In this document: positions 2,596-39,497 of the stretch, one piece after another | Layout of the letters: each line of letters opens with the position of its first letter | How positions within the stretch are numbered: the first letter of the stretch is position 1 | Source of the DNA: Sulfuritalea sp. | Lineage (GTDB): Bacteria > Pseudomonadota > Gammaproteobacteria > Burkholderiales > Rhodocyclaceae | DNA length: 39,497 bases | Assembly (NCBI GenBank): GCA_020048435.1 | Contig: JAIFMO010000062.1 | Location: forward strand, 1 to 39,497 | Direction of reading: 5' to 3' | Notes under the pieces: model-generated | What the model was told of the DNA's origin: nothing | Seen by the model: the letters and a program-made list of their open reading frames with translations, nothing else | The model's database searches: none | Position numbers and translations under genes: made by a program

Positions 2596-5500
2596 ACCCT
2601 ATCGATCATGCCGGCCGCCGCGCAGCGATCACGGTCTTCCTGCATCACTGCCGCGGTCATGGCAATGATGGGCAGGTCGGCGGCCCCCGGCAGGGCATGA
2701 ATGCGGCGGGTGGCTTCAAGGCCATCCATCACCGGCATGTGCAGGTCCATCAGCACGGCATCGAAGCCCGGACCGCCCGCCCGTTGCGTGGCGGCCACGG
2801 CATCCAGGGCTTCCTGGCCGTTCACGGCCAGCGTGACCTGAACGCCGGATTTTCTCAACAATTCAGACGCGACCAGTTGATTGGTGGCGGTGTCTTCCAC
2901 CAACAGGATGTGGGCGCCATGAAATTGCCGTACCGCTAGCGCCGACTTTTTGGGGAGTTTGGCTGTTTCCCCACCCGTCTCGCCACCCGCCTCGCCGGGC
3001 GTGGGCTGTGACTGCGGTGCAACGCCGACCAGGACAGTAAAGGAAAAAGTCGCGCCCTGCCCCGGATTGCCCGAGGCCGTAATTTCGCCACCCATCAACC
3101 CCACCAATTTCTGGCAGATGGTAAGACCCAGGCCGGTGCCGCCGTACTTGCGGGTGATGCTGCTGTCTTGCTGGGTAAAGGCCTGAAATAGTTCGGCGAC
3201 CTTATTCTTGTCGATGCCGATGCCACTATCGCGCACGGCGAAGCGCAGGGTCAATAAGTTGGCGGCGGCGTCAACGTAGGCAACTTCCGCCTTGAGATTG
3301 ATTGCGCCCTCTTCGGTGAATTTGATGGCATTGCCGACCAGGTTGTTGAGTACTTGCGCCAACCGCAGCGAATCGCCCAGTACTTGCGCCGGCAGGTCGG
3401 GCGCAATGTCGATGGAAATATCCAGCCCTTTTTCGGCGATGCGGGCGCCGAACAACGCAGCGACGTCGTGCAGCAATCCCTCGACCGAAAATGGCAGCCG
3501 CTCGATATCGAGCCGGCCCGCCTCGATCTTGGAATAATCGAGAATATCGTTGAGGATACCCAGCAGCGCCAGCGACGACTGATGGGCCTTGCGCAGGAAA
3601 TCCTCCTGCTTCGGTGCCAGCGGCGTATCCAGCACCAGTTGCGTGAGGCCGATGATGGCGTTCATCGGCGTGCGGATTTCATGACTCATGTTGGCGAGGA
3701 ATTCGGATTTCGCCCGGTTGGCCGCTTCGGCCTCGCCGGTACGCATCCGCAGTTCCTCGTTGAGCAGTTCAAGCCGGGTCTGGGTCTGCTTGAGTTCGGT
3801 GACATCAGCGATCATGACGAAGAATCCCCGTACCTCGTCTTCCACCACGTTGGGCAGGTAATGGGCCCAGGTATAGCCAGTGCTGCCGTCGGCCTTGACC
3901 AGCGTCCGCTCGAAATGCTGCGTTTCGCCACGCAGGGCGGCGCGGATAAAGGGCTCGTTCTGGCGAAACAGTTCTTCGCCCATCAGTTCCTGGATGCGGA
4001 TGCCGTGCATCTGCGCCTGCGTCTTGCCAAACCACTTGAGGTAGTGGGCGTTGGCAAAACCGCAGCGCAGTTCGGCATCCCAGTAGCCGAGCATGCCAGG
4101 AATGATGTCGGCCAGCGACAGCAGGAAGTGTTCGGAGTCTTTCACCGCATTTTCGGCCAGGGTCTGCGCCGTCACATCCTGCACCGTACCGATGCCCGCC
4201 GCCAGATTGCCATCGCCGTCAAAAACCAGTTCGGCCTGCTCGCGTACCCATTTCACCGCGCCGGCGACGACGATGCGGTGGGTGATGTCATAGACCGCGC
4301 CGTGCAGTGCCGCCTGCCAGGCGCCATCGACGGCCGCGCGGTCGTCCTCATGCACGCAGGCAATAAAGTCGTCGTAGGCCAGCGGCGTACCGGTCGGAAT
4401 GCCGAAGATGTGGCAGGTTTCGTCCGACCAGGTCAGCCCGTTGCCGGCAAGATCGAGATGCCAACTGCCGATGTGGGCCACGGCCTGGGCGCGGCGCAGC
4501 GTCGATTCGTTCTCGCGCAGCGCTTCCTGGAAACCGCGGGTTTCGGTGACATCGCTCATCACGCCATTCCAGACGCTATCACCGATGTCCATGGGCGTGG
4601 GTGTGGACTCGATGCGCAGCCAGCGCGTCGCGCCGCCGATAACGAAACGGCCTTCCCAGAAGAAGGGCTGGAGACGGCGCGCTGCCGCGTGGTTAAGCGC
4701 GATGAAGTTATCCCGTTCATCCGCCTGTACCTGGGCGAAGGCGCAGGCGGCATCGGCGAGAACATCGGCCTGGGTCAGCCCGAGAATCTGGCAGAAACGG
4801 GGACTGACGTATTCAAAAGCCATGCTGCCGTCAGCGCGAATGCGGAAGCTGTACACACCGACGGGAATGCGGGCGGTCAGTTCTTCGTAACGGGCCTGGC
4901 TCTGCCGTAACTCGTGGGTACGCACCACCACCCGCTGCTCCAGCGAAGACTGTTCATCGACCAACTGGTCGGCCATGCGGTTGAAGCTGCCCGCCAGTTC
5001 GCGAAACTCGTCGCACCCCGAAGCTTCCGCGCGGCGGTCGAATTCGCCCGCGGCGATGCGGCGGCTGGCGAGCGTCAGGGCGCGAATCGGCCTGACCAGG
5101 CTGCGGCCGAACAACAGCGCAAAAATGCCTGCGGCAAGCAACACCAAAACCAGCATGGCCAGCGTCTGACTGCGCAGGGCATGGGCCGGCGCCAGCGCCT
5201 CGGCCACGTCGATCTTGACCACCATGCCCCAGTTGAGCGCCGGCAAATGGCGCCAGACGGCAAGAATATCGACGCCGGCATAGTCGCGGGTAAGGCCGTG
5301 GCCGTGGCCGCCGGCCAGCGCCGCCTGCATCGGCGCGGCTGCGACCGACAAAGGCTGGCGATGACGGAAAGCGGCATCGGCAACCCGCCGCAAGGGCCCG
5401 ACATAAAGCACCTCGTCGCCATCGCGCTGCGCCAGCACCGTTTCTCCGGTAAAGCCGAGTCCGGTGGTATCCACCGCCACCTGAGTAAGTCGATCGAGGT

Positions 5501-6152
5501 CCATTTGCAGGGCGATCGAGCCGAGCAAGCGGCCCTGATACAGCACCGGCGTCACGATGAAGACCGCCGGCCGGTTGCTCGACGCGGTATAGCGCGCCAC
5601 CGGCGTGATCTGGGTATCGAGCAGTGCCAGCGCCTCGCGGTGGGCGCGCGCCAGCGGCGTGTCACGGAAGGGGCCGCTATTAAAGTTGGTACCCAGATCC
5701 GGTTCGTGCAGGATGGAAAACACAACATTGCCGGCGGTGTCGGTCAGCAGCAGGTCGTAGTAGCCGATGCTTTCGATGAGATTGAGATAATAGTCACGGT
5801 AGGCGGTCGCCAGTTCCTGCTGACGAGGAGTGCCGATTGCCGTCCGATCAGTTACTTGAGTTGATGCTCTAACCACGGGATTGCTCAGTTCGCGCAAGGC
5901 TTCACGCGTAACGGCCGACTTGGCCAGCAGTTCGCTGTTGGTCAGGCGCTCGCCCAGATAGGCATCGATCTGGTCCGCCTTCTTGTTGGCGATCGAGGCA
6001 AGGTTAACCTGAGCCGTTTCACTCATGCTGCGCTCGAAAGCCTGAACGTAGAGGAAGGCGAGCCCGGCCAGGGGCAGCGAGGAGACGAGCAGGAAGCCGG
6101 CCAGCAGCCGCGGCACGATACGGGTGAACGTTCCCGCGCGGGTGAAGGTCAC
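2574..6152 (-). CDS. Membrane hybrid histidine kinase (periplasmic Cache-like sensor, HAMP, PAS repeats, HisKA, HATPase, truncated REC)
   Basis: TM and periplasmic sensor, HAMP, PAS, HisKA (EFLANMSHEIRTPMNAIIG), HATPase (GGTGLGLTICQKL), REC (HILLVEDTATNQLV...DAVLMDLHMPVMDG). Start placed at GTG 6152 (GTGA overlap with the upstream gene) rather than ORF start 6431. Confidence 0.9.
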   Translation of the reverse strand: MTFTRAGTFTRIVPRLLAGFLLVSSLPLAGLAFLYVQAFERSMSETAQVNLASIANKKADQIDAYLGERLTNSELLAKSAVTREALRELSNPVVRASTQVTDRTAIGTPRQQELATAYRDYYLNLIESIGYYDLLLTDTAGNVVFSILHEPDLGTNFNSGPFRDTPLARAHREALALLDTQITPVARYTASSNRPAVFIVTPVLYQGRLLGSIALQMDLDRLTQVAVDTTGLGFTGETVLAQRDGDEVLYVGPLRRVADAAFRHRQPLSVAAAPMQAALAGGHGHGLTRDYAGVDILAVWRHLPALNWGMVVKIDVAEALAPAHALRSQTLAMLVLVLLAAGIFALLFGRSLVRPIRALTLASRRIAAGEFDRRAEASGCDEFRELAGSFNRMADQLVDEQSSLEQRVVVRTHELRQSQARYEELTARIPVGVYSFRIRADGSMAFEYVSPRFCQILGLTQADVLADAACAFAQVQADERDNFIALNHAAARRLQPFFWEGRFVIGGATRWLRIESTPTPMDIGDSVWNGVMSDVTETRGFQEALRENESTLRRAQAVAHIGSWHLDLAGNGLTWSDETCHIFGIPTGTPLAYDDFIACVHEDDRAAVDGAWQAALHGAVYDITHRIVVAGAVKWVREQAELVFDGDGNLAAGIGTVQDVTAQTLAENAVKDSEHFLLSLADIIPGMLGYWDAELRCGFANAHYLKWFGKTQAQMHGIRIQELMGEELFRQNEPFIRAALRGETQHFERTLVKADGSTGYTWAHYLPNVVEDEVRGFFVMIADVTELKQTQTRLELLNEELRMRTGEAEAANRAKSEFLANMSHEIRTPMNAIIGLTQLVLDTPLAPKQEDFLRKAHQSSLALLGILNDILDYSKIEAGRLDIERLPFSVEGLLHDVAALFGARIAEKGLDISIDIAPDLPAQVLGDSLRLAQVLNNLVGNAIKFTEEGAINLKAEVAYVDAAANLLTLRFAVRDSGIGIDKNKVAELFQAFTQQDSSITRKYGGTGLGLTICQKLVGLMGGEITASGNPGQGATFSFTVLVGVAPQSQPTPGEAGGETGGETAKLPKKSALAVRQFHGAHILLVEDTATNQLVASELLRKSGVQVTLAVNGQEALDAVAATQRAGGPGFDAVLMDLHMPVMDGLEATRRIHALPGAADLPIIAMTAAVMQEDRDRCAAAGMIDRVWRRPPP
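2926..2951 (-). repeat. Dispersed 26-bp repeat, copy 1
   Basis: Minus strand AAAAAGTCGGCGCTAGCGGTACGGCA, inside the hybrid kinase HATPase-REC linker. Confidence 0.9.
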
Positions 6153-7399
6153 GGCGCGCCACCGCTGGCGGGTGCGCCCACAATTTTTCGCCAGTCCTCG
6201 CGGCTGCGATAAAACGGCCACGGCGCCGGTCGCATGGGTATGCTGGAGGACATCACCTCGGTGAATTGGCCGTCTCGTCCAGCCTGCCCGATCCGTACCA
6301 TTTTCCACAAATGGCGGGTGGCGGCATCCACCGAAACGATGGCTGAGGGTGCGCTGAGGCTTTGCCGTAACAGGGTGGCATTGACCCGGGCAGGTTCGGG
6401 TGAGCCGGCATCGCTTACCGCCTGCGCCCATAGACGAACCCCGACATAAGCGGCTTCAACCGGATCGCTGGTGACGCGCGTGGCGCCGAAACGCTGCTGG
6501 AAAGCCTGGACGAAGCGGCGGTTTTCGTCGCGCGGCAGCGACTGGAAGTAGCTCCAGACGCCGAAATGGCGGCCAAGACGGCCACCGCCCCAGGCCGCCA
6601 TTTCGGGTTCGGCCACGCTGAACGAAACCAGCGGCATCGCGCCCTGCCCCGCCTGTTCAAGGGCGGCAAAGAATGCGGCGTTGCTGTCGCCGTTGATGGT
6701 ATTCAGCACCACGTCCGGCTTGAGGCGGCGGATTTCTTCGATCACGGTGGCCACGTCGGTCGCTCCCAGCGGCAGGTAGCGCTCTGCCAGCACCTCGCCG
6801 GCGCTCGCCGTGACCAGGTCGCGGATGATGCGGTTGGCGGTGCGCGGGAAAACATAGTCGGAACCGACCAGGTAGATGCGCTTGCCGAAGGTTTCCATGG
6901 CCCAGCGGGTACCTGGCACGATCTGCTGGTTCGGCGCCGAACCGGTGTAAAGAATGTTGGGGGACTGTTCCAGCCCCTCGTATTGCACGGGGTAGAACAG
7001 CAGGTGCCGGTGCTGTTCCACCACGGGTTTTACGGCTTTGCGGCAGGCCGATGTCCAGCAGGCAAACAAGGCGCTGACCTTGTCCACAGCAATCAGTCGC
7101 TCGGCCTCGGCGGCAAAGTGCGACCAGTCGGAACGGCCATCCACTACTACCATTGCCACCGGCCGCCCAAGCAGTCCGCCCGCGGCGTTGATTTCTTCCA
7201 CCGCCAGCCGCACGGCATCGACCAGCGGCTTTTCGCTCACGGCCATGGTGCCGGTGAGCGAATGCAGCACACCGATGCGGATGGGGGGCGCCGCTGTCGC
7301 CCGGTTCAGCACCTGAAAGAAACCGAACAACAGCAAGACCGCTACCAACAAGGCGAGGCCGATGCGAGGAAACGCGGGGGGATTCGAGCCCAGGTTCAT
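6149..7399 (-). CDS. Periplasmic substrate-binding protein, urea/short-chain amide type (UrtA/AmiC/FmdD-like)
   Basis: N-terminal TM/signal; IRIGVLHSLTGTMAVSEKPLVDAVRLAVEEINAAGGLLGRPV... FYPVQYEGLEQSPNILYTGSAPNQQ typical of urea/amide ABC binding proteins. No permease or ATPase genes nearby. Confidence 0.85.
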   Translation of the reverse strand: MNLGSNPPAFPRIGLALLVAVLLLFGFFQVLNRATAAPPIRIGVLHSLTGTMAVSEKPLVDAVRLAVEEINAAGGLLGRPVAMVVVDGRSDWSHFAAEAERLIAVDKVSALFACWTSACRKAVKPVVEQHRHLLFYPVQYEGLEQSPNILYTGSAPNQQIVPGTRWAMETFGKRIYLVGSDYVFPRTANRIIRDLVTASAGEVLAERYLPLGATDVATVIEEIRRLKPDVVLNTINGDSNAAFFAALEQAGQGAMPLVSFSVAEPEMAAWGGGRLGRHFGVWSYFQSLPRDENRRFVQAFQQRFGATRVTSDPVEAAYVGVRLWAQAVSDAGSPEPARVNATLLRQSLSAPSAIVSVDAATRHLWKMVRIGQAGRDGQFTEVMSSSIPMRPAPWPFYRSREDWRKIVGAPASGGAP

Positions 7400-7465
7400 G
7401 GCGGCAGGAGACGGATCAGGGTATGCGCGAAAGGAGGGATGACCCCGATGGCGAACAGCATGCGC

Positions 7466-8587
7466 TCAGGTCAGTTGTCCCAGCAGTTTGCCCAGTTCCT
7501 GCATCGATTCATGCGTCTGCTCGCCTTGGTCAAGCAAATCCACCAGTTCCTTCATGAAGCCGTGGACCAGGTCGCCCAAATGGCGTTCCTGGTCTTCACT
7601 AAGACCGAGATGGACAAAGGCCTTGGCCAAATCCTGTTCCATCCGCACAAAGAGATCGGAACTGGCGGCCCGATCACGCAAATGGGCCTGCCCCAGCGCC
7701 TCCGTCATGGCGCGAACACGCTCCAGCACGCCGCGGATGCCAGCCTGGCTGCGCTGACTCGCTTCATCGGTTTCCAGTGCGCGCAACCGCGCCTCAGCGG
7801 ACTCGGCGGCGATGCACAGATGATCGCGCAAGCGGCCGCAGTAGTCCGGGTCGTCCAGCGGCATGTTGCTGACCATCATGGTCAGCCGCTCGTAGTTGTG
7901 CACGCTGCGATTGCGGAATTCAAAGATGCGCTCCAGACCGCGCACATGATTCATTATGGAGGTTTCCAACGGAATATTGGTGCCTTGCGCGCTCTGCGTC
8001 AGCGTGCGCCGGGAAATCCTGGTCTGTACCACGCCATTCAGACGATAACGCTGCATCATTTCCAGCAGGCCAGCAGCGATTTCCTGCTCGTTCTCCCAGG
8101 AAATCAGCTCGCGAATGAAGCGGACGAGGATGGCGTATTCATCCATGTTGGCCATCACCAGCGAGGAAAGCAGTTCGGAATCCGCCAGTTGTTGAAGCAG
8201 CGTGCGCTTATCCTGGACAATTTGCCGCGCGACCTGCACCTTGCGCCGCACCTCTTCGGCCTCGAAGGGCTTGACGATGAAGTCCTCGCCGCCGGCATCG
8301 TAGCCCATCAACCGGGCGTCGATGGTGTCCTGGCTTGAAACGAACGTAACCGGGATCTGCCGCAAGCCGGCAGTGTCCTTGATTTCGCGACAAAAAGCGT
8401 AGCCATCCTTGTCGGGCATGCGCACGTCGAGCAGGAACATGTCGGGCTGTTCCACCACCAGCCTTTGCTCACAGGCTTTCACGCTATCGAAGGTTTCGAC
8501 TGCGTAATCGGGAGCCAGAATGTCACGAATCACGTCAAGGACGAAGGCGTCGTCGTCGACGACAAATACCCTGAAGGCAGAACTCAT
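7466..8587 (-). CDS. Response regulator, REC plus uncharacterised helical C-terminal region
   Basis: MSSAFRVFVVDDDAFVLDVIRDIL...MFLLDVRMPDKDGY...FIVKPFEAEE; start at ATG 8587 overlapping upstream TGA (ATGA). The ~240-aa C-terminal half shows no output domain I recognise. Confidence 0.85.
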   Translation of the reverse strand: MSSAFRVFVVDDDAFVLDVIRDILAPDYAVETFDSVKACEQRLVVEQPDMFLLDVRMPDKDGYAFCREIKDTAGLRQIPVTFVSSQDTIDARLMGYDAGGEDFIVKPFEAEEVRRKVQVARQIVQDKRTLLQQLADSELLSSLVMANMDEYAILVRFIRELISWENEQEIAAGLLEMMQRYRLNGVVQTRISRRTLTQSAQGTNIPLETSIMNHVRGLERIFEFRNRSVHNYERLTMMVSNMPLDDPDYCGRLRDHLCIAAESAEARLRALETDEASQRSQAGIRGVLERVRAMTEALGQAHLRDRAASSDLFVRMEQDLAKAFVHLGLSEDQERHLGDLVHGFMKELVDLLDQGEQTHESMQELGKLLGQLT

Positions 8588-9714
8588 TTTGGATTTTCCT
8601 TGTTGCTTTGTTCGCCATCGTCGCTGTACTGCGCGGCGATATCGCGGAAGGCGTCGGCATCGTCCAGAAAGCAATCGGCCAGTGCCGGATCGAAATGCTT
8701 GCCACGGCCGTCGCGGACAGCCTCGACAGCGGTCGCGTGCGGCAAGGCCGGCTTATAAACCCGTTTGCTGGTCATGGCGTCGTAAACATCGGCAAGGGCC
8801 ATGATGCGCGCCGCGAGTGGAATCGCCTCCCCGCCGAGACCTTCCGGATAGCCGCTGCCATCCCAGCGTTCATGATGGGCGTAGGCAATGTCCTTGGCCA
8901 CGCCAAGAAACGAGCTATCCGAACCCATGCGAATTTCCGCCGTTTGAATCGCATCCCGGCCGATCACGGGATGGCGCTGCATCAGCGCAAACTCATCGGC
9001 GGTCAGTTTGCCGGGCTTGAGCAGGATGTGATCGGGTATGCCTATTTTGCCAATATCGTGCAGCGGGGCGGATTTCCAGATCATCGCCCATTGCTCGGCC
9101 GTGACGCTTTCCCGGTAGCGCGGCAAAGGCGCCAGCCGTTGCGCCATGATCTTGACGAAAGCGCGGGTGCGATGGATGTGGTTGCCGGTTTCATTGTCAC
9201 GCGTTTCGGCGATCGATCCCAGCGCGACGATGGCCAAATCCTGACTGAGTTGCAACTCGGCGGTTCTGGCCTGAAGGTCGCGCGTGCGTTCATTCACCAG
9301 CGATTCGAGGTGCAGGTTCTGGTCGCGCAGGAACTCGCCGGCTTCGCGCAAACGCAGATGCGTCTTGACGCGGGCCAGCAGGACGGGCGCAGCCACCGGC
9401 TTGCTGACGTAATCGACGGCGCCGAGTTCGAAGCCTTGCGTGATGTTGTCAACATCGGTGTGGCTGGTTAGGAATATCACCGGTATCTCGCGGGTGAGTG
9501 CCTCTTGCTTGAGCGCCCGGCAAATATCGTAGCCGTGCATGTCCGGCAGTTTGACGTCAAGCAGGATCAGATCGGGCAAGGGCCGCAGGCGCGCCAGTGC
9601 CAGACCCTGCAGACCCAGCGTGGCGATGCGCACCTGGTAATACGGCCGCAGGGTCTGCTTGAGGATACCCAATACCAGGGGATCGTCATCGATCAGCAGG
9701 ATCAGTTTTTCCAT
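8584..9714 (-). CDS. Response regulator with HD-GYP phosphodiesterase domain
   Basis: REC (LILLIDDDPLVLGIL...LILLDVKLPDMHGYD) followed by HD-GYP motifs HDIGKIGIPDHIL and HHERWDGSGYPEGL. Start at ATG 9714. Confidence 0.93.
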   Translation of the reverse strand: MEKLILLIDDDPLVLGILKQTLRPYYQVRIATLGLQGLALARLRPLPDLILLDVKLPDMHGYDICRALKQEALTREIPVIFLTSHTDVDNITQGFELGAVDYVSKPVAAPVLLARVKTHLRLREAGEFLRDQNLHLESLVNERTRDLQARTAELQLSQDLAIVALGSIAETRDNETGNHIHRTRAFVKIMAQRLAPLPRYRESVTAEQWAMIWKSAPLHDIGKIGIPDHILLKPGKLTADEFALMQRHPVIGRDAIQTAEIRMGSDSSFLGVAKDIAYAHHERWDGSGYPEGLGGEAIPLAARIMALADVYDAMTSKRVYKPALPHATAVEAVRDGRGKHFDPALADCFLDDADAFRDIAAQYSDDGEQSNKENPK

Positions 9715-13942: not shown

Positions 13943-13992
13943 GGTTACTCCACCTAAGTTATGTTGGCTTGTTCACGGAATGGGCGTAACAA

Positions 13993-14922
13993 CTACAAAC
14001 CATCGAGCCAGGCGTCGCGACGGGTCCGCGCCATGCTGAACATAGCTTCCAGCCCGTCGGCATCGGCGCCGGCCAGCAGCACGCGGGTGCGCAGCAGTTC
14101 GGCGATGTAGGCGTCGAGTTCCTTGAGCAGCGCGCCGCGATTGGCGACGCAGATGTCGCGCCACATTTCGGGATGGCTGCTGGCAATGCGGGTGAAATCG
14201 CGAAAGCCGCCAGCGGCGAAACTGAATAATTGCGCGGAGTTGTCGCGGTTGGCGAAATCGTGCACCAGCGCGAAGGCGAGCAGGTGCGGCAGGTGGCTGA
14301 CCGCCGCGAACACCGCATCGTGTTCGGCCGGCGCCAGTTGCGACACGCGGGCGCCGCAGGCTTCCCATGCGGTACGGACGCGGGCGACCGCGGCATCGGC
14401 GTTTTCAGGCAGTGGTGTCAGCACCACGCGGCGGTCGACGTACAAATCGGCGCTGGCCGCGGCGACGCCGCTTTTTTCAGCGCCGGCAATGGGGTGGCCG
14501 GGCACGAACTGGCCGATCTTGTCGCCCAGCGCGGCACGCGCCGCCGCCACGACGTCGGACTTGGTGGAACCGCCATCGGTGACCACGGTGCCCGCTTGCA
14601 GGTGCGGCGCCATTGCCGCCATCACCGTTTCCATCTGGCCAACAGGCATGGCCAGTAGCACGAGATCGGCGGGGTTGGGGCCACCGAGCGCAGTGGCCCA
14701 GTCGGCGGCGATGTGGTCGATGACACCGAGTTGCAGGGCCTGTTCCAGCGGCGCGCGGGTGCGGCCGATGCCGGTAATGCATACTTCCTGCCGTACCGCT
14801 ACCGCCGACTTTTTGAGCGCCAGAGCAAACGAACCACCGATCAGACCGACACCGCAAATAACAACATTTTGGGTTACATGATTAACAACCCCGTTGGCGA
14901 CCGCGTTGGCAGCCATCAGCAC
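13993..14922 (-). CDS. tyrA: Prephenate dehydrogenase
   Basis: NVVICGVGLIGGSFALALKK... DGGSTKSDVVAAAR...FVPGHPIAGAEKSG...; located next to hisC and pheA. Confidence 0.93.
   Translation of the reverse strand: MLMAANAVANGVVNHVTQNVVICGVGLIGGSFALALKKSAVAVRQEVCITGIGRTRAPLEQALQLGVIDHIAADWATALGGPNPADLVLLAMPVGQMETVMAAMAPHLQAGTVVTDGGSTKSDVVAAARAALGDKIGQFVPGHPIAGAEKSGVAAASADLYVDRRVVLTPLPENADAAVARVRTAWEACGARVSQLAPAEHDAVFAAVSHLPHLLAFALVHDFANRDNSAQLFSFAAGGFRDFTRIASSHPEMWRDICVANRGALLKELDAYIAELLRTRVLLAGADADGLEAMFSMARTRRDAWLDGL
14789..14814 (-). repeat. Dispersed 26-bp repeat, copy 2
   Basis: Minus strand AAAAAGTCGGCGGTAGCGGTACGGCA inside tyrA. Confidence 0.9.
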
Positions 14923-16016: not shown

Positions 16017-16026
16017 GGGGAAACCC

Positions 16027-26086: not shown

Positions 26087-26092
26087 AAAATT

Positions 26093-26127
26093 AATCTAAC
26101 AAATTGATTTTGTTGGATTTATTTTTT
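26093..26127 (+). terminator. Terminator downstream of tRNA-Ser
   Basis: AATCTAACAAA-ttgat-TTTTGTTGGATT stem followed by tatttttt. Confidence 0.75.
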
Positions 26128-26213
26128 CAAGCATCAGCGACTATCAACTCCAGTTTGGCCGGCATCAATTACAAGTTCCGGTACTTCCGGCGCCTCATAG
26201 GGCGCATCGATAT

Positions 26214-27335: not shown

Positions 27336-27383
27336 GTGGTCGGTCTGTCTTACCGCGACCCAGCCATTCCCCCTACTCCCCGT

Positions 27384-28325: not shown

Positions 28326-28436
28326 CGCAATCTATACGTCAGTTTTTTGGATGTATATTTCAATAATATTCGATTTGCGCGATGTCTTGACATCCCCTAG
28401 ACTTCAGTTTGTGTCACTCTTTGAGGGAGCTATCTC

Positions 28437-29318: not shown

Positions 29319-29390
29319 CGAATCCACCCGTTCCTTATTCACCGATTTCCCGATCCAGCCAACACGTTGTTCCATCGCAAGGAGAATCAG

Positions 29391-30077: not shown

Positions 30078-30149
30078 GGCATCTTTACCGCGCAGAAAAA
30101 CCGGGCCGGCAAACTGGCCCGGGAACACCACACAAACCACTGACCGATC

Positions 30150-30902
30150 ATGATCGAACTCCTGCTCACCCCTGAAGTCTGGATTGCTTTCTTCACGCTG
30201 ACGGCGCTGGAGCTCGTTCTTGGTATCGACAACATCATTTTTATTTCCATCCTCGTCGATAGGTTGCCCCGCGAGAAACAGGAGATCGCCCGGCGGCTGG
30301 GCCTTTTCCTGGCGATGTTCATGCGTATCGGGCTACTGCTGGTGCTGTCGTGGATCGTCGGCCTGACCGAACCCGTACTCTCGGTCATGGGCATTGATAT
30401 TTCCGGGCGCGATCTGATCCTGATTTCCGGTGGCCTGTTCCTGATCTGGAAGAGCACCGGCGAAGTGCATCAACTGCTCGAAGGCGAGGAAGGCGAAGAA
30501 TCGCGCAAGGTGGCATCGAGTTTCTTCGCGGTCATCGCCCAGATCATGGTGATCGACCTCGTTTTCTCGCTCGATTCCATCATCACCGCCGTCGGCATGG
30601 TGAGCGAAGTAGCGGTAATGATTGCCGCGGTAATTGCCTCCGTGGGCTTGATGATGCTGTTTGCCGGCGCCATCGGCCGCTTTGTCTCCGACCACCCGAC
30701 GATCAAGATGCTGGCGCTGTCCTTCCTCGTCGTCGTCGGCGTCGTGCTGATTGCCGATGGTTTCGGCCACCATGTGCCCAAGGGTTACATCTACTTCGCC
30801 ATGGCCTTCTCGGTGGGTGTCGAGATGCTTAACATCCGCATGCGCAAGAAGAAGGTGAAGCCCGTTGATCTGCGCGAACCCTACGTGCGCGAGGCAAGCT
30901 GA
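30150..30902 (+). CDS. TerC family integral membrane protein
   Basis: FFTLTALELVLGIDNIIFISILVDRLP...QIMVIDLVFSLDSIITAVGMV signature TerC motifs. Confidence 0.93.
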   Translation: MIELLLTPEVWIAFFTLTALELVLGIDNIIFISILVDRLPREKQEIARRLGLFLAMFMRIGLLLVLSWIVGLTEPVLSVMGIDISGRDLILISGGLFLIWKSTGEVHQLLEGEEGEESRKVASSFFAVIAQIMVIDLVFSLDSIITAVGMVSEVAVMIAAVIASVGLMMLFAGAIGRFVSDHPTIKMLALSFLVVVGVVLIADGFGHHVPKGYIYFAMAFSVGVEMLNIRMRKKKVKPVDLREPYVREAS

Positions 30903-30916
30903 AGCCTTGGCCCTGT

Positions 30917-30942
30917 AAAAAGTCGGCGCTAGCGGTACGGCA
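30917..30942 (+). repeat. Dispersed 26-bp repeat, copy 3 (intergenic)
   Basis: AAAAAGTCGGCGCTAGCGGTACGGCA; identical to copy 1; 14 nt after the terC stop. Confidence 0.92.
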
Positions 30943-31108
30943 AATTTCGGCAATGCATGATCACTGAATGCAATAATTGCCAGCAGTTTTTTGCCGGTCC
31001 TGCCGTTATATCTGGCAAGCTTGGCCTCGATACATCACGGCTTGACCGGTTACGGTGGCGAAAAATCTCAGAACCTGGAACCATTCGCCACCAGAATTAA
31101 TTCAATCG

Positions 31109-31124
31109 TGGCACGTCCTATGCA
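31109..31124 (+). promoter_or_regulatory. Putative sigma54 (-24/-12) promoter
   Basis: TGGCACGTCCTATGCA versus consensus TGGCACGNNNNTTGCW; GG and GC dinucleotides 10 nt apart; about 65 nt upstream of the ORF at 31188. Confidence 0.65.
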
Positions 31125-31187
31125 TGCCTTGAGGCCAGGATAGCGGGGTTACAACTCCTGGGTATCCGGATCATAAGGAGGCAAATC

Positions 31188-31412
31188 ATGTTCCACGTTC
31201 TCGATCATGCTGATGTCGTTTACAGCGGTGAACTTTCCCAAACGACACAATTCGTCCTCGAACACTATGGCAAGAAGCTTGATGACGCCCTCCGCTCTGG
31301 CATCAAGATTCTTTACTCCGACGCACTACACAGCTTGAACGAGGCCCGGCAGGCCGTATTGGGGCAATCCAGGAATTACTGGAACCCCATCGAAGATTGG
31401 CAGATCGACTGA
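31188..31412 (+). CDS. Small conserved-looking protein of unknown function (74 aa)
   Basis: ATG preceded by AAGGAGG; MFHVLDHADVVYSGELSQTTQFVLEHYGKKLDDALRSGIKILYSDALHSLNEARQAVLG... Confidence 0.7.
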   Translation: MFHVLDHADVVYSGELSQTTQFVLEHYGKKLDDALRSGIKILYSDALHSLNEARQAVLGQSRNYWNPIEDWQID

Positions 31413-31416
31413 ATCG

Positions 31417-32427
31417 TTAGCGCGCGCTCTTCTGTACCGTCACTTTCCCATACGGGAAAAAGTGGTCGAACACGGCGTTTTGACCGGCCACCGATGTATC
31501 GACGCGGGTAGCCGAAACGGTGACGGAGGCATAGTAGCGGCATTCCGGGCTGCGCCCCTTGCTCCATTCAAGCACCGGCCGGGCAGCGGCATGAAATTCA
31601 GCAGCCGACAGCGGCTTGCCTCCGCCAGTCAACACCTTGATGTTCGGTATCTTCATAGCCTCATCTTCACGCTCGGCAGGCCACCCCGGACGCACCACCA
31701 GGCCCTGATCCGTGACCTCGACGGCAATCAGGCGCTGGCTCCGACCGCCATTGGCAACCCAGCACGGCGGCGGGCCGAAGCCCCCCTTGTTGCCACTGAT
31801 ATTTCCGCTCATGCTTTCCATCTGATGGCGCAAGAAAGTGACCTGATTGATCAGGTTCTGACGCTCTTTTTCCAAAGCATCGCTTTTGGCCTGGGCCGTG
31901 ACGCAATTCCAGCCCTGCTTGATGGCGCTGGCACTGTCCAGCCTCTTTCCCGCCGCGTCCTCAAAGGCCTTTTTGAAGGCCATGGCCGTGGCGAGTTCGT
32001 CCGCAACCGCCTGAGTTGCATCCTTTCCGGCCAGCGTCTTCATTGCCTGTAAAAAAGCCGCCAGCGAACCGATCTGTTGTTCCAGTTCGGCGATCTTGAG
32101 CTTCATGTCACGATTTTCCGGTTCGAGCGCGGTGCAACGCCGAAGGTCTGCAATCACGTCGTCGGGCCGATATGTACCGCCTTTGTAGGCATCGAGCAGC
32201 GTCTGGACTGATTTTTCCGACTTCTGCCTCAACTGCGCCGCCTCTGCGGTCTTCGCAAGTTCAAGCCGGGTTTGCTTAAGCTTTTCAGTGGTCTCGTGGG
32301 CCCGCTTGTCGGCGTCTAGCACCATCCACCCCGTGATCAGCATCATAAGGAAAACCAGCATGAACGCCAGTTCCGTCAGCGAAAGCTGAAAGACCTGATC
32401 GTTCTTTTTTGACAGGGGAAGCGGCAC
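31417..32427 (-). CDS. Single-TM protein with coiled coil and C-terminal domain; candidate stator/ExbD-ZorB-like partner
   Basis: N-terminal FQLSLTELAFMLVFLMMLITGWMVL TM, long charged helices, then a globular region starting PPPCWVANGGRSQRLIAVEV; located 12 nt downstream of the MotA/ExbB-like gene. Confidence 0.75.
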   Translation of the reverse strand: MPLPLSKKNDQVFQLSLTELAFMLVFLMMLITGWMVLDADKRAHETTEKLKQTRLELAKTAEAAQLRQKSEKSVQTLLDAYKGGTYRPDDVIADLRRCTALEPENRDMKLKIAELEQQIGSLAAFLQAMKTLAGKDATQAVADELATAMAFKKAFEDAAGKRLDSASAIKQGWNCVTAQAKSDALEKERQNLINQVTFLRHQMESMSGNISGNKGGFGPPPCWVANGGRSQRLIAVEVTDQGLVVRPGWPAEREDEAMKIPNIKVLTGGGKPLSAAEFHAAARPVLEWSKGRSPECRYYASVTVSATRVDTSVAGQNAVFDHFFPYGKVTVQKSAR

Positions 32428-32439
32428 GGCGAATACCCC

Positions 32440-33789
32440 TTAAATGTTCGTCGTCCGCCTGGCGGCAATCACCTGTTCCATTGCCAGCGCAAGACGATCC
32501 ATTTGCGTCGACAACTGGCGGGAGGCAGCCGTTTGCCCGGAGGCAATATCCTGCAAGACGCGATGATCCGTCGTTACGGTAACCACGGCGGCAGCCAGAT
32601 CCGTCACCGCCTTGCGCTGTTCATCAAGCCCGGACATCGCCCGTTCGAGCGCGATTTCAAAATACTTCACGTTGTTCGCCAGTTTCAGCAGCACCTCTTC
32701 CTGGGCATTTACCTTGTCGATGGTCTTCGACTGCTGGTCGACAGCCTTGCGAATTTTTTCGGTCGCCGCCGATACCGAGTCCGGCACCGCATGCAGGGAA
32801 CTGGCAATTCGCCGCGACTCGGCTTCAAGGTTGCCGGCAAATCCGTTGACCTGCGCGACGACCGTTGCAAGTGAGTTCCGAAGTTCCAGGGTGGCGGGCT
32901 TTATCTCGTCGGCGAACAACTGGGCCGGAAAAGTCAGGCCGTTCAAGTTCTTGTTGAGCGCGGCCGAAAAATCGTCAATCTTCTGCGTCAAGCCGGTCAG
33001 CGAGCTGCCGATTGCATAGGAGAAGGTATCCACCTTGCCGGTCATATTCTCTGAAAACTGGTTTAGCTTCGCCTCGTGGTGCTTGGCCGTGACGACAAGC
33101 GAAGTGGCGTAGAGTTGAAGCGACTTGCGCAGATCCGCCGACGAAGCATCCAGGTTTTGCAAAGACCGTTGCGACGATTCGGTGATCTGTTGGCCGATAT
33201 TGTCGAAGAGTCGCGTGAACTCGGCGGTATTGGACTTTGCCGTCTCCTCGATGGAGAGTTCCATCCGCGACACCACTTTGCGGGCAGCTCCGTCAACGAC
33301 CTCGTTAAACTCGTGCAACTTTTCGACGGCCGCACCCAGGTGCGTGCGGAAAACCCGTTCCGCTTCTAGCAGGTCATCTTCGATCGCTCGCGTGATGTCG
33401 CCAATATCCTTGCGGAAGCTGACCAGATAAACGCGCACGATCAGGCCGAACACCGTGCTGACCATGGCGGCGCCAAAGCGCACTGCGATGTCTTCCAGTT
33501 TCCCGCCAGTCTGCAACCCGGGCAGATCGAACAAGCTAACGATGATCGAGCTGATGGTGAAGATGAAACCAAGGTAGTAGCAACTATCGGCGAATTTTTC
33601 ATCCGAGACCGCCTCCTTGTCCCGCCACCACAGCCCACCAAAAACATAGGCGCTCATGATCAGCAAAGGAACAACGAAGCTGAGAATCCACCGATCACCG
33701 AGCCACCAGCCGAGCAGGGTGGCGCCGATCTTCAGGACAATGGTGTAGATGAACAGTTCCTGAACGGAAATCTTCCCACGATGTTTCAT
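32440..33789 (-). CDS. MotA/TolQ/ExbB-like membrane protein with long coiled-coil tail (ZorA-like architecture)
   Basis: N-terminal TM cluster incl. FADSCYYLGFIFTISSIIVSLF and IAVRFGAAMVSTVFGLIVRVYLV (ExbB/MotA-like TM pair), then ~280 aa of helical heptad-like sequence. Start at ATG 33789. Confidence 0.7.
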   Translation of the reverse strand: MKHRGKISVQELFIYTIVLKIGATLLGWWLGDRWILSFVVPLLIMSAYVFGGLWWRDKEAVSDEKFADSCYYLGFIFTISSIIVSLFDLPGLQTGGKLEDIAVRFGAAMVSTVFGLIVRVYLVSFRKDIGDITRAIEDDLLEAERVFRTHLGAAVEKLHEFNEVVDGAARKVVSRMELSIEETAKSNTAEFTRLFDNIGQQITESSQRSLQNLDASSADLRKSLQLYATSLVVTAKHHEAKLNQFSENMTGKVDTFSYAIGSSLTGLTQKIDDFSAALNKNLNGLTFPAQLFADEIKPATLELRNSLATVVAQVNGFAGNLEAESRRIASSLHAVPDSVSAATEKIRKAVDQQSKTIDKVNAQEEVLLKLANNVKYFEIALERAMSGLDEQRKAVTDLAAAVVTVTTDHRVLQDIASGQTAASRQLSTQMDRLALAMEQVIAARRTTNI

Positions 33790-33857
33790 GGTTATCCCTC
33801 GGGTTATTGAACTCGGCTGGCGCAATGACTGAAAACTGACTGACTCGTAAAATGACG

Positions 33858-33876
33858 ACGGGAGCCGAAGCTCCCG
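33858..33876 (-). terminator. Hairpin at the end of the tmRNA coding piece
   Basis: GGGAGC-TTCG-GCTCCC on the minus strand followed by a weak T-tract (gtcgtcatttt). Confidence 0.65.
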
Positions 33877-33921
33877 CCGATAGCCATTCTGTTTATTGGA
33901 CGGCTACATCCTCAGCATGCC

Positions 33922-33954
33922 TTAAGCGGCAATTGCGAAACGCTCATCGTTGGC
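33922..33954 (-). other. tmRNA proteolysis tag ORF (ANDERFAIAA*)
   Basis: Direct translation on the minus strand; ends AIAA-stop like known tags. Confidence 0.95.
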
Positions 33955-34191
33955 GTTTGTGGTTTTGCGCGGATTACGTCCGTCGCCTCTCGAGCCGCCT
34001 GCTTACCTTCTACGCCCTGTCGAAACCAGTACACCCCCCCAGTGGTGGAGGTGGCGGGAATCGAACCCGCGTCCAGAACGCTTCCGGGTCGCCGGAATTA
34101 CGACCATGCCCGGATTATGAGGCTCCGCGGGCTCGAATTCAAGTTGCGTTGAGATATTTTGCTCGATCAGGGCTGTGCGCTGGTGCCGCGG

Positions 34192-35793
34192 TTAGAAGCC
34201 CTCCAGCGGCAGGGCAACGGCGCCGTCGGGTTCGGGTTCCGCTTGTATAGTTGCCGCCTCATCCTGGGCGAAGGCATCCATCGTGACGTCACTCAAGTCG
34301 CCGCCATCACCCGTGGCCTCCGTACCATTTTCCCCGGCCATGCTGACGCTCTGCTGCATCAGGGCGTTGTAACGCTGCTCGATATCCTTGAGGCGGTTGG
34401 CCCGATCTTCCGCCACGATGGTTTCTTCATCGAGACGGCGCTGGGTCGACTCCGCCTTTTCTTTGGCGGCGGCGAGTTGATCCATCAGCGCCATTTTTTC
34501 CTGACGGGCAGCATCGAGTTGGGCGGCAACAGATTCCTGCATTGGAATCAATGAGTTGGCCAGATCGGCAATTTCACCGCGTGCACCGGTGGGCAGCACC
34601 ACGTCGGCATGGCCATGCGTGATCGAGGCCACGGCGGCGGTCAGTTGCCGGAGCGGAACAAGAATCGACACACGCACCTGTCGCGCGATGAACACCAGTA
34701 TCAGCAGCCCGCAAAACAGCGCAATACCGCCCACAAGCAACGCCGAACCAGGCGCGCCGCCCTTGATGCGGGCATTGGGCACCAATACGGCCAGCGTCCA
34801 GGGCAGCTTGCCCAGGGTGGCATAGACGGCATACTGGCCACCCACGGCATCGTGCACACGGCCAAGCGTCTCGCCGTGGGCCTGAATGGCGGCGATGGCC
34901 GAAGCCGCCGAAGGCACGGCCCCCTTCTTGTTATCATCCGCCTTGAGGCTGCCGCCCGAGGCTGCGATGTCGTCGGTACGGCCGCTCATGGCGATGATCG
35001 ATCCATCGGTTCCAAACACCAGGCGCGTCAAGCCGGCCTCGCTGCCCGTCTCGTCGAGAACCATGGCCTCCGCCATGCGCAGCAGCGGCACATCCTCGGC
35101 AATGACACCGATGAAGCTATCACCGACATACAACGGCAGGCTCAGCGTCACCGAACTGGTCTTGCCGCTCGGGTCGACGCGGGCCATGCCCCACACCGGC
35201 CCCTTACCCGGATTCTTGGCCGGCGCGGCACCCGCGAACCAGGCCTCGCCAGCCAGCTTGTGCCCGGCGGCAAGCTTTTCCGTCCAGGGGTAAACCGGCC
35301 AATAGGCCACCAGCCAGCCCTCGGGCCCGGCGAACCAGATATTGGAATAATCCTTGCGCCACGCCTGGCCAAACAGATTGGCGGTGTCGCGGAAAGTCAC
35401 GATGCGGTGCTTGAGGTCTTCGTCGAGTTCCAGTCCGGCGGGCGCAAAAATACCCGGCTCCCATTTTGGATCGAAGCGATCCTCGCGCGAGCGCAAGCTG
35501 CCATCCTCGCGCACGACCGTGTCGTGGCCCAGGCGAATCGGCGAATCCTCCTTGCGCTGTCCATCCAGGCGCGCCAGCGCATCATCGCGGGCGAGCTCAA
35601 GGCGGCGCAACGCTTGCAGGAAGGTCTCGTTCAGCACGCGGGCACGGTTTTCGATCATCACCTGTTGCCGGCTCAGCTCCTGCTCGCGCGACTGCCGCTC
35701 GAACAGGAAATAGCTCGCCACCGCCAGCGCGGCGGCGGCAACAACCAGGGCAAGGGCCAGCGATACCAACAGGTATCGATTGATGGTTTTCAT
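34192..35793 (-). CDS. Membrane sensor: periplasmic Cache-like domain, HAMP and coiled coil; no recognisable catalytic output
   Basis: N-term TM, large periplasmic region (WFAGPEGWLVAYWPVYPWTEKL...), second TM (ALLVGGIALFCGLLILVFIARQV), HAMP (LVPLRQLTAAVASITHGHADVVLP), then coiled coil and an acidic tail. Confidence 0.85.
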   Translation of the reverse strand: MKTINRYLLVSLALALVVAAAALAVASYFLFERQSREQELSRQQVMIENRARVLNETFLQALRRLELARDDALARLDGQRKEDSPIRLGHDTVVREDGSLRSREDRFDPKWEPGIFAPAGLELDEDLKHRIVTFRDTANLFGQAWRKDYSNIWFAGPEGWLVAYWPVYPWTEKLAAGHKLAGEAWFAGAAPAKNPGKGPVWGMARVDPSGKTSSVTLSLPLYVGDSFIGVIAEDVPLLRMAEAMVLDETGSEAGLTRLVFGTDGSIIAMSGRTDDIAASGGSLKADDNKKGAVPSAASAIAAIQAHGETLGRVHDAVGGQYAVYATLGKLPWTLAVLVPNARIKGGAPGSALLVGGIALFCGLLILVFIARQVRVSILVPLRQLTAAVASITHGHADVVLPTGARGEIADLANSLIPMQESVAAQLDAARQEKMALMDQLAAAKEKAESTQRRLDEETIVAEDRANRLKDIEQRYNALMQQSVSMAGENGTEATGDGGDLSDVTMDAFAQDEAATIQAEPEPDGAVALPLEGF

Positions 35794-36950
35794 GGGGTTT
35801 CGCTCTCGGGCGCATCGGAAAGGGTGTAGGCGTGCGTCTCGAAGCGACGATGCGCACTGGCAAGATATTCGTGCGAACCCATCTCGGCGAGGCGCGAGAC
35901 GGTACGCTGGAATTCGCTGGATTGCGTCCCGCGCGTGTAGAGGGCTTCGGCGGGAACGGCGGCGGTAAGAATCAGTTTCACACGATGATCATAAAGCACA
36001 TCGACCAACCAGGTGAAACGGCGCGCGGCGGCAGCCTGTTCCGGCGCCATTGCCGGCACGCCGGACAGGAAAACGGTGTGAAAGGTGTGCGCAATATCCA
36101 GGTAGTCGTTTTGTGAGCGCGGCCCGCCGCAGAGCGTGGCAAAGTCGCACCAGAGCACGCCGGGCGCGCGGCGGATCACTTGGAGTTCGCGCTGCATGAG
36201 CATCAACGGCTGTGCATAGCCTTCGCCGCCGGCGATCTGTATGAAGGCGGCGCGCAGCCGTTCTTCACTGGCGGCGTCAATCGGTATGTGGAAAACCGCA
36301 GCGTGCTCGAGAGTGCGCAAGCGGTAGTCGATGCCGGCATCGATTTCGATGACGTCGAGCCGCTCGTTCAACAGCGCGAGGGTCGGCAGCAGCCGCTCGC
36401 GCTGGAGTCCGTTGGGATAAAGGCCGTCGGGGGGATAGTTGGACGTGATGCAAAACAGCACGCCGGCTTCGAACAGCGCCGCCATCAGGCGGGCGAGAAT
36501 CATGGCATCGGCGATGTCGGCGACGTGGAATTCGTCGAAACACAGCAACCGGGTTTCCCGCGCCACCCGCGCCGCCACCCGTGCCAGCGGATCGGCCTCG
36601 TTCCTGTGGGCGCGCAAACGTTCATGCACTTCGCGCATGAAGGCGTGAAAATGCACCCGCCGCTTGCGCCGGTAAGGCACCGCGTCGAAGAAGCAATCCA
36701 TCAGGAAGCTCTTGCCGCGCCCGACGCCCCCCCAGAACCAGACGCCCTTGGGCAATTCCGGCCGCAGGAACAGCTTCCGGAGCTTCGTGCGCCGCGTCGC
36801 CTTGAATGCAAGTAGGTCGTCGTAGAACGTTTGCAAGCGGGTGGCGGCCGCCTGTTGCGCTTCGTCTGCCACAATACCGCGCCCGTTCAACGCGGCATTG
36901 AAAGCCAGGATCACGCCGTCTTTCGGGACGTTGAGAATATGGTGGGGCAT
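35790..36950 (-). CDS. zapE: AFG1-family ATPase ZapE
   Basis: KGVWFWGGVGRGKSFLMDCFFDAVPYRRKRRVHFHAFMREVHERL...LLCFDEFHVADIADAMILARL; start at ATG 36950. Confidence 0.94.
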   Translation of the reverse strand: MPHHILNVPKDGVILAFNAALNGRGIVADEAQQAAATRLQTFYDDLLAFKATRRTKLRKLFLRPELPKGVWFWGGVGRGKSFLMDCFFDAVPYRRKRRVHFHAFMREVHERLRAHRNEADPLARVAARVARETRLLCFDEFHVADIADAMILARLMAALFEAGVLFCITSNYPPDGLYPNGLQRERLLPTLALLNERLDVIEIDAGIDYRLRTLEHAAVFHIPIDAASEERLRAAFIQIAGGEGYAQPLMLMQRELQVIRRAPGVLWCDFATLCGGPRSQNDYLDIAHTFHTVFLSGVPAMAPEQAAAARRFTWLVDVLYDHRVKLILTAAVPAEALYTRGTQSSEFQRTVSRLAEMGSHEYLASAHRRFETHAYTLSDAPESETP

Positions 36951-39497
36951 CAGCTCAGCGTTGCTTCGATCATGTCCCAGCGCTTGTCGCGCACCATAAC
37001 GAAACGGCAGCGCCCATCGGATAATTCGGCCCACAGGTCGCCGATCAGCCGGTCGTCCGCCGCGTCATTCCAGCGATCCGCCCCTTTGTATTCGACCACC
37101 AGTACCGAGCTGTCCGGCAGCAGACAGACAAAATCCGGGTAAAAACGGCCCTGCGCCTTTTGCAGGAAGAACGCACAACCCTCGCGGCGCACCAAATTAC
37201 GCACCCAGAAGCGGATACGCCCGGCCTGCGCCCACTGGTCGAGCTGCACCGCGCAGGCGAACTCCTCTTCGCTATCGAAGGCGCCGACGCGGCCGTAAAA
37301 GTGCTTGCGGAACACCACGCCGGTCGCTTTCGGATCGTAATCGCGCGTCGGCGCATAAGCATGCGGGTGGAACTCGAAGACCTGCGCCGCGCTTACCGCC
37401 ACGCGGGTCGCACGATCGTCGCCGAACAACACGCTTTGGTAAGTCAGCGCGATGGCCGACAGGCGCAAGGCCTTCACTCGCGCCTCGATCAAATCGCGCA
37501 GGAGATATTTCTGCAAATTGGCGCGTGCCAGATCGAATCCAGGCTGGTGCAAGAGTTCGCCCAGCCAATGGGCGATGAAGGCCTGTTTGGCCGCGTGCGT
37601 TAGCGACGGCTCAGGCAGATTCTTCGCCAGCCAGGCTGCGAGCTTCACCGCATCCCAATGCTCGGGACGATAGACGAGGCCCAGGTCGCGTTGCAGGTCG
37701 GCGATGAAATGTTGTTGCAGTGTGCCGGTGGCCGCGTCGAAGTCAATCTCGCCGCCCTCGCTCACCTTGAGCCCTACGCTCAGCCGTTGTAGGTCGTCCG
37801 CCGTCGGTGCCGCATCGTAGGGCGATAAATCCCACGGATATTCCAGCACCTCGGGGTCATCGAAAAGTGTCGGCTGCGCACTCGCGTCATGGCGCAAACA
37901 CAAGTGCGGCACCACGAAACGCTCGCCCAACTCGGCCGGCGTCTGGAAAAACTCGATGGCCGTCGTTCGACTTTGCAAAGCGGCAGCGGCAATCGCCTCC
38001 CGCGCCGGGATGGAAACCACCGTTTGTTGCAACGCAGCGGTTTCCGCGCCATCGAGCGGTCGCGCAATCGTCAGCGTCGCGGCCAGATCGTCCCAGGCAA
38101 GCTTTTCGCGCAATGGCTTTGGCAGTGCCTTTATTTCCGGCTTTTCCGACAAAGCCACGACGACAGGATGCAGCGTCGCCCGCTCGCCCCAGCCAGCCAG
38201 ATCAAGCAGCGCCTGATCGGACTTGGCGGCGGTAACAAACTCGCGCACCTCGCGCCGCTCGAAGCCCGCACCGGCAATCAGCCGCTCGCGCAGATGTGCG
38301 GCCGTCTCGGCGAAGTTGGCCGAGACGACGAAGGCATAGGCGCGGTTGAGCGCCGCATTCTCGAAGTGCCGCGCTTGCGGCTGGCGCAACACACGGCCGA
38401 GCAACTGCTCGACGGCGGTGGAGGAATGCACCGCCGCCATGCTCACCAGAATATAGGCATGCGGGCAATCCCAGCCCTCGGCCAGCGCCTTTTGCGTGAT
38501 GATGAAACGCACCGGGCACGCCGGGTCGGCAATCCCTAGCGGATACTTCGCGTCGATTTCTTCCAGCCCGTGCTCTTCGCCGGTGGCCACGACAATCTGC
38601 TCGGCCGGAATGCGCTGATTGTCGTGGATCAACACGATGGGCCGCAGATAGCGTCCCGCCGAAAAGTCGGCGGTAGCGGTACGGCGCAATTCCTGCTCGG
38701 CCAGCGCCTGCAAGCCTTCCCGCCGCGCGATGGCATCGGCCAGGCACTGCTGCCAGTTCGGCTCCGCTTCCAGCAACACCGGCAGCTTGATCATCTGCTC
38801 GGCCTTCAATTCGCCGGCAGAAACACTGTGCAGCACATTGGACGGCGTCCGCTCCAGATCCGGCGTCGCGGTCAGTTCCAGCACACCCGACGGATTGAAG
38901 CGCGCCAGCATGTCGAAGGCCAGCGGCGTGCGGTTGTTGTGCGCCTCGTCCACGATGACGAAGGGGCGGCGCAGACGCAGCACGTTGGCCAGCGAATACG
39001 GCGTCGTCTCGCCTTCCTGCAACAGGCTTGCCCGTTGCACGGTGGTCAGGCCGTCGAAATGGTGCATCAACGCACCGGATGACTCATACACCTTGCGGCT
39101 TTCGGCATCTTCCACCTGAAACGCCTGGCGCGTGGCGACGATTACCACGGTCGACGTGTCCAGCGTCGCGAGCGTCAGGCTTTTCGCCTCGTCCAGATCG
39201 AGCACCGTCACCGGCCCCGCCTCGCGCAAGGCGGTGTGATACGGATGCTCGCGCCCCTTGAGGCCGCGCAAGGTCTGTTCGCGGATCGGCTTCGACGGCA
39301 CCAGCCACAAAATCACGCTGCGCTCGCAACGCAGCAACTGGTCATTCACCAACTTCAGGCTCTTCGCCGCCAGCCAGGTCTTGCCACCGCCCGTCGGCAC
39401 CCGCAGGCAAAAATACGGCATCGCGGCAGGGAAACCCGTCAGCGGCCGATACTTCTGCCCCTCGCCCCACAGCGCCTTTGTCGTCGCATAAAACGCC
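36950..39497 (-). CDS. Type III restriction Res-like DEAD/SF2 helicase with C-terminal PD-(D/E)XK-like nuclease; 5' end outside the window
   Basis: Walker A VPTGGGKTWLAAKSL, DEAH (VIVDEAHNNRTP), SF2 C-terminal motifs (EGWDCPHAYILVS...QLLGRVLRQPQ), C-terminal FYPDFVCLLPDSSVLVVEYKG. Frame stays open to the window edge upstream of M 39421. Confidence 0.88.
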   Translation of the reverse strand, partial: AFYATTKALWGEGQKYRPLTGFPAAMPYFCLRVPTGGGKTWLAAKSLKLVNDQLLRCERSVILWLVPSKPIREQTLRGLKGREHPYHTALREAGPVTVLDLDEAKSLTLATLDTSTVVIVATRQAFQVEDAESRKVYESSGALMHHFDGLTTVQRASLLQEGETTPYSLANVLRLRRPFVIVDEAHNNRTPLAFDMLARFNPSGVLELTATPDLERTPSNVLHSVSAGELKAEQMIKLPVLLEAEPNWQQCLADAIARREGLQALAEQELRRTATADFSAGRYLRPIVLIHDNQRIPAEQIVVATGEEHGLEEIDAKYPLGIADPACPVRFIITQKALAEGWDCPHAYILVSMAAVHSSTAVEQLLGRVLRQPQARHFENAALNRAYAFVVSANFAETAAHLRERLIAGAGFERREVREFVTAAKSDQALLDLAGWGERATLHPVVVALSEKPEIKALPKPLREKLAWDDLAATLTIARPLDGAETAALQQTVVSIPAREAIAAAALQSRTTAIEFFQTPAELGERFVVPHLCLRHDASAQPTLFDDPEVLEYPWDLSPYDAAPTADDLQRLSVGLKVSEGGEIDFDAATGTLQQHFIADLQRDLGLVYRPEHWDAVKLAAWLAKNLPEPSLTHAAKQAFIAHWLGELLHQPGFDLARANLQKYLLRDLIEARVKALRLSAIALTYQSVLFGDDRATRVAVSAAQVFEFHPHAYAPTRDYDPKATGVVFRKHFYGRVGAFDSEEEFACAVQLDQWAQAGRIRFWVRNLVRREGCAFFLQKAQGRFYPDFVCLLPDSSVLVVEYKGADRWNDAADDRLIGDLWAELSDGRCRFVMVRDKRWDMIEATLS
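38661..38686 (+). repeat. Dispersed 26-bp repeat, copy 4
   Basis: GAAAAGTCGGCGGTAGCGGTACGGCG; 24/26 identical to copy 2; antisense to the helicase gene it lies in. Confidence 0.88.

Follow-up and report, generated by a model that had tools for sequence, protein, structure and literature searches.

What kind of element repeats an almost identical 26-bp sequence at four places in less than 40 kb, three of them inside genes? The window, i.e. the whole stretch of 39,497 nucleotides that was analysed, is contig C198 of the source genome G000 (3.05 Mb, 247 contigs), a bin that is 92% complete. The four copies were found with exactly the coordinates, strands and sequences given in a preliminary description, and it was borne out that one copy is intergenic and three lie in genes. 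Copy 1 (AAAAAGTCGGCGCTAGCGGTACGGCA, 2926..2951, minus strand) is located within a hybrid histidine kinase gene (2574-6431, minus strand), before the receiver domain (KKSALAVRQ), and the peptide encoded at the motif is AKLPKKSALAVRQF. Copy 2 (AAAAAGTCGGCGGTAGCGGTACGGCA, 14789..14814, minus strand) lies in a length-variable part of tyrA (prephenate dehydrogenase, 13993-14922, minus strand) close to the N-terminal end, where the peptide is LALKKSAVAVRQE. Copy 3, again AAAAAGTCGGCGCTAGCGGTACGGCA (30917..30942, plus strand), is intergenic and follows an ORF ending at 30902. Copy 4 (GAAAAGTCGGCGGTAGCGGTACGGCG, 38661..38686, plus strand) lies within a helicase gene of the opposite strand (36950-39421, minus strand); the peptide is ELRRTATADFS, the motif itself being read as RRTATADFS. 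Chance had been dismissed as an explanation in the preliminary description, and 100 dinucleotide shuffles of the window indeed yielded 0 matches at three or fewer mismatches. The window also contains a tmRNA gene (33853-34156, minus strand; Rfam beta_tmRNA, 238 bits).

Copy number and sequence of the motif

The earlier guess of hundreds of copies across the genome proved correct, and a genome-wide lack of further copies, named in the preliminary description as refuting evidence, is clearly contradicted. The 26-mer is present in G000 in 139 exact copies and in 484 copies with five or fewer mismatches. For the 20 fixed positions, 335, 120, 49 and 23 copies with 0, 1, 2 and 3 mismatches, respectively, were counted, and beyond that only background was seen. 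The corresponding numbers from a single order-5 Markov simulation with the same genome size were 0, 0, 0 and 2. A sharp gap in the mismatch counts separates the motif copies from chance matches, and the genome total is about 500 copies, of which the four in the window are a small sample. Among the 12-mers of the genome, words of the motif show by far the strongest over-representation. Another frequent word, GCCAACATGAGCCACGA, represents the H-box of histidine kinases and was set aside as ordinary homology.

The consensus, AAAAGTCGGCGnTnGCGnnACGGC, has a length of 25 bases, and the signal over 497 copies is AAAAGTCGGCG[C/g]T[A/g]GCG[G/a][T/c/g]ACGGC[A/g]. Its blocks are near-invariant, and the mismatches gather in a small number of free columns. 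The flanks of the 497 copies carry almost no information and reveal no target preference beyond a weak composition. The information content of the site is 41.7 bits, and 13.6 bits would be enough for locating it. The motif is asymmetric, and searches for a stable hairpin or fold and for an Rfam match at the motif found none.

Placement, orientation and spacing

Gene prediction relied on a simple hexamer model, and by this approximate measure 304 of the G000 copies are inside predicted genes, 174 are intergenic and 25 span a boundary. The expected shares of these three classes are 83%, 13% and 4%; the observed share in genes is about 60%, and the intergenic copies are in 2.6-fold excess. Two reading frames with an in-frame TAG are almost unused by the in-gene copies, and all four others are used. 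A repeat at the protein level was rejected, since the copies use every stop-free frame of either strand. The two strands carry similar numbers of copies in G000 (184/190), and the relative orientation of adjacent copies is random (166 same, 140 opposite). Four large stretches of the genomes G001, G098 and G022 were also devoid of a clear strand bias. A polar replication signal was rejected on the basis of this lack of strand polarity in G000 and in the stretches of the other three genomes.

The spacing of the copies in G000 is more even than random, with a coefficient of variation of 0.76 versus 1.00, and 36 pairs are less than 1 kb apart versus 73 expected. Even spacing was also significant in three of the four large stretches of G001, G098 and G022. 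The numbers of copies per contig in G000 are under-dispersed, without clustering by region, and a search for close inverted pairs in this genome found none. A structured RNA or terminator was rejected in view of the lack of an Rfam match, a stable hairpin and close inverted pairs. A repeat of the REP, BIME or terminator-like type was likewise discarded, as the motif has no stable fold and 60% of the copies are inside genes. In a small test with part of G001, the copy density was 0.08-0.10 per kb in non-conserved regions versus 0.15-0.17 in conserved regions, a depletion that is only modest.

Origin of the copies at orthologous sites

Loci with and without the motif were compared, as the preliminary description had proposed. 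An alignment to a quarter of the genome of G001, which belongs to the window's own genus, spanned 81 sites of G000, and at 52 of them the motif was retained without gaps. Identity at these 52 sites was 96% in the fixed columns and 78% in the flanks. At column 13, 45 of the 52 G000 copies have an A, and 45 of the 52 G001 copies have a G. The same orthologous copies have been re-spelled together, i.e. the dialect has changed in a concerted manner between G000 and G001. A trans-acting factor with lineage-dependent specificity has worked on all copies. Thirty-six orthologous sites without the motif were mostly of equal length or differed by small multiples of three, and the larger length differences among them were broader deletions or insertions. 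Judged from these alignments, in-gene copies arise by substitution.

The tyrA copy of the window is the clearest case of substitution towards a species-wide target, rather than of insertion. The motif, or a form of it with one or two mismatches, is found at the orthologous site in G087, G134, G003, G002, G004, G143, G011, G001, G098 and G022. G064 and G278 carry it there in their own dialects, so that the carriers are 12 other species in all. The site in G259 contains a decayed form of the motif, and in motif-less genera the motif is missing and the stretch is mostly shorter. Two sequences were observed to be nested inside motif copies of G001 (loci L132, L138, L148, L152 and others). One is CACCCCAAGGGTACTTCCTGCGGGGCGC, found three times in 800 kb. 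The other, also found three times, is an in-frame stretch of 24 bp that resembles TATGCGTAGTGGTATCCATGCGGA and is flanked by AAAAAGT and CGGCGCTGGCG.

Distribution, dialects and losses

The copy numbers in 401 genomes of Rhodocyclaceae were bimodal, with about 100-590 copies in six genera (g1, g2, g9, g20, g55 and g80) and almost none in the others; close sister genera lack the motif. The 388 genomes sampled from other families of the order contained 0-5 copies each. By their titles, the public records holding the motif are mostly from Rhodocyclaceae, e.g. Sulfuritalea, Sulfurisoma and Rugosibacter, and Sulfurisoma sediminicola BSN1 is one of the carriers. Motif-bearing JAHJEO01 records are labelled Gammaproteobacteria, which is probably wrong; they would rather belong to Rhodocyclaceae. 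Four genomes of other genera or families without enrichment (G074, G101, G434 and G482) have a few consensus copies, sometimes several per contig, as expected of imported tracts or of bin contamination. The rare copies in other families, sometimes two per contig (G434, G482), look like imported tracts.

The motif exists in at least four lineage dialects; the dialect columns of the 25-mer are positions 4, 8, 13, 19 and 24, counted from 0. The dialect in G000 is CTAGCG, and that of most carriers is CTGGCG. G064 and G278 seemed to be poor in the motif because each of them uses another dialect: GTCGACG in G064 (full form AAAGTCGACGCTGGnGnnACGGC) and AAACTCGG...GCGGC in G278 (full form AAACTCGGCGCTGGCGrGGCGGC). 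Losses have taken place inside carrier genera, completely in G264 and almost completely in G259. A replacement motif was not seen in 396 kb of G259 and 173 kb of G264. Other repeats were noticed in the genomes of this set: G259 contains tandem repeats (L276-L295) with a GACGGTATCCAC end, e.g. units of TATGTCCTCGGGCACTTGGCCCGAGGACGGTATCCACCCGGA, and about 58 copies of a repeat with CATGCCCTGATTTCAAAGGGATTAAGAC in G022 (C1:1-400000; L296-L315) are probably a CRISPR array.

Competence genes and candidate receptors

ComEC was detected in 38 of 38 genomes examined, PilQ is present in motif carriers, and both occur throughout the family. Minor pilins and minor-pilin operons are also present across the family. 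The window's own bin contains ComEC, but PilQ only as a fragment at a contig end, and a search for a minor-pilin operon in this 92% complete bin found none; the incompleteness of the bin is perhaps the cause of both gaps.

Pilins of the ComP_DUS family were found in 39 of 42 genomes, motif-bearing and motif-less alike, and neither ComP_DUS-type nor GspH pilins separated carriers from non-carriers as a receptor marker. In G001, a ComP_DUS-type pilin adjoins FimU (L148), and the same pilin type occurs in motif-less relatives as well. The ComP_DUS-type pilin is a candidate receptor class. Among 44 genomes, close homologues of a pilin-like gene of G000 (C154:2242-2718) were seen in just two, G278 (C22:11966) and G259 (C94:4660), at 64-67% identity, and the motif of both species deviates from the form in their genus. 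The comparison was post hoc and a resolvase-like gene is located on the same contig of G000, so that the gene is only a lead in the search for the receptor.

Interpretation as a probable DNA-uptake sequence

The most likely explanation is that the motif is a DNA-uptake sequence, i.e. a self-recognition tag for natural transformation, to which we assign a probability of about 80%. It is based on the motif itself, its number and distribution, its origin by substitution, the concerted change of dialects, the lineage-specific losses and the competence genes of the family. From these we infer a receptor that binds the tag, a preference in uptake and the kind of protein that the receptor is. At the cell surface, double-stranded DNA with the 25-bp tag would be bound by a receptor, for which a type IV minor pilin is the most likely candidate; retraction of the pilus would draw the DNA through PilQ, and ComEC would pass one strand into the cell. 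Homologous recombination would then incorporate fragments with the tag into the chromosome at a higher frequency than fragments without it, and near-matches would thereby move towards the consensus at all sites where the sequence permits this. A shift in receptor specificity would be followed by the whole set of tags and appear as a dialect, and after a loss of specific uptake the tags would decay.

The other readings were weighed against the same data. The preliminary description had proposed a short, non-autonomous mobile element; one of only about 26 bp that inserts into genes and intergenic DNA would leave near-identical copies by the hundred at unrelated sites. However, the 36 motif-less sites are mostly not shorter by the length of such an element: they differ mostly by nothing or by a few codons, and the large differences are broader events. 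The flanks lack a target preference, the mismatches are concentrated in few columns, the copies change their dialect together between species, and the tyrA site is re-spelled in each dialect. Transposition is refuted as the main process, and a mobile origin is extremely improbable. Another alternative is a sequence favoured by biased gene conversion, or a HIP1-like motif linked to a methylase or to DNA repair, with no part in uptake; biased conversion would also lead to accumulation in genes by substitution and to concerted change. However, HIP1 is a short palindrome and the present motif is long and asymmetric, no known system of this kind reads 25 bp, and the shortage of copies less than 500 bp apart would have no obvious cause. 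We regard this possibility as very unlikely.

Somewhat less remote, but still unlikely, is a binding site of a protein for chromosome organisation, segregation or recombination (compare matS, SlmA sites, KOPS, Chi and AIMS) that is kept for its effect on the chromosome. Even spacing and a concerted change of dialect would also be compatible with a DNA-binding protein that acts in trans on many sites. However, the copies exhibit no strand polarity and, with under-dispersed contig counts, no clustering by region, and the motif has been lost in single species of a genus and is absent from close sister genera. Its 41.7 bits are also far above the 13.6 bits that suffice, and one would not expect the coding sequence of hundreds of genes to be reshaped by a nucleoid protein. 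The preliminary description had suggested an uptake or architecture motif, or a protein-binding site. The hallmarks shared with known uptake sequences favour uptake over architecture, and protein binding may well be the molecular step, with a pilus receptor as the more likely partner than a chromosomal architecture protein.

A paper of 2025 states that uptake tags are known only in Neisseriaceae and Pasteurellaceae (PMC12616744). Our literature search found no report of uptake sequences in Rhodocyclaceae, Rhodocyclales, Betaproteobacteria or Burkholderiales and no match to the letters of the motif; preprints and most subscription papers were outside the search, so that an earlier report is possible. 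Sequence-specific uptake has probably evolved independently in a third family, the Rhodocyclaceae, with a rigid 25-bp tag, at least four dialects and separate losses that allow a receptor search by comparative genomics. No continuous uptake sequence in the literature examined is as long as this tag. If confirmed by experiment, this would be the third bacterial family with self-DNA tags, and self-tagging would have evolved again outside host-associated pathogens, since the family is environmental in its named members. Harmless cultured species would be available for experiments, the dialect shifts and losses would help to find the receptor and would test the molecular-drive theory of uptake sequences, and the motif would predict which DNA these bacteria exchange.

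Comparison with known systems

HIP1 of cyanobacteria, a palindrome of 8 bp that occurs thousands of times, is restricted to certain lineages and lies to a large extent inside genes. The Rhodocyclaceae motif resembles it in its genome-wide over-representation, its presence in some lineages only and its location largely in genes, but it is 25 bp long, asymmetric and divided into dialects. With KOPS, Chi and AIMS it shares over-representation and a spread around the chromosome. However, those sequences are short and strand-biased along the replichore, whereas the orientation of the present motif is without strand bias and does not follow the direction of replication.

The DUS of Neisseriaceae is the most over-represented word of the genome, with dialects by lineage, both orientations and locations in and between genes, and some species of the family lack it (PMC3630211). 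The Rhodocyclaceae motif is similar in all of these features. However, the DUS has about 10-13 bp, is recognised by the minor pilin ComP as receptor and is present in roughly 2000-6000 copies per genome, whereas the 25-bp motif of Rhodocyclaceae is unrelated in sequence, about twice as long and found about once per 6 kb. Close inverted pairs, which are common in Neisseria, are absent.

For the USS of Pasteurellaceae, a location inside ORFs of 65% (in Haemophilus influenzae), an excess in non-coding DNA, no orientation bias, even spacing and accumulation by point mutation have been reported (PMC1939737). The Rhodocyclaceae motif is like the Pasteurellaceae USS in its even spacing, its location mostly in ORFs with a non-coding excess, the lack of orientation bias, the origin by substitution and the long footprint. 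The USS has a 9-bp core (AAGTGCGGT or ACAAGCGGT) in a 32-bp extended motif with loose A+T-rich tracts, and its predicted receptor is ComN/PpdA. In contrast, the core found here is the unrelated sequence AAAAGTCGGCG.T.GCG..ACGGC, a single block with about 20 of 25 positions near-invariant. Compared with DUS and USS generally, the motif is sparser (about one per 6 kb) and longer (25 bp, 41.7 bits). It shares with both the hundreds of copies, the asymmetry, the use of both orientations, the origin by substitution, the dialects and the losses, and the competence machinery is present in carriers, albeit only partly found in the window's own bin. In summary, the motif appears to act like DUS and USS, yet it belongs to neither by sequence or taxon.
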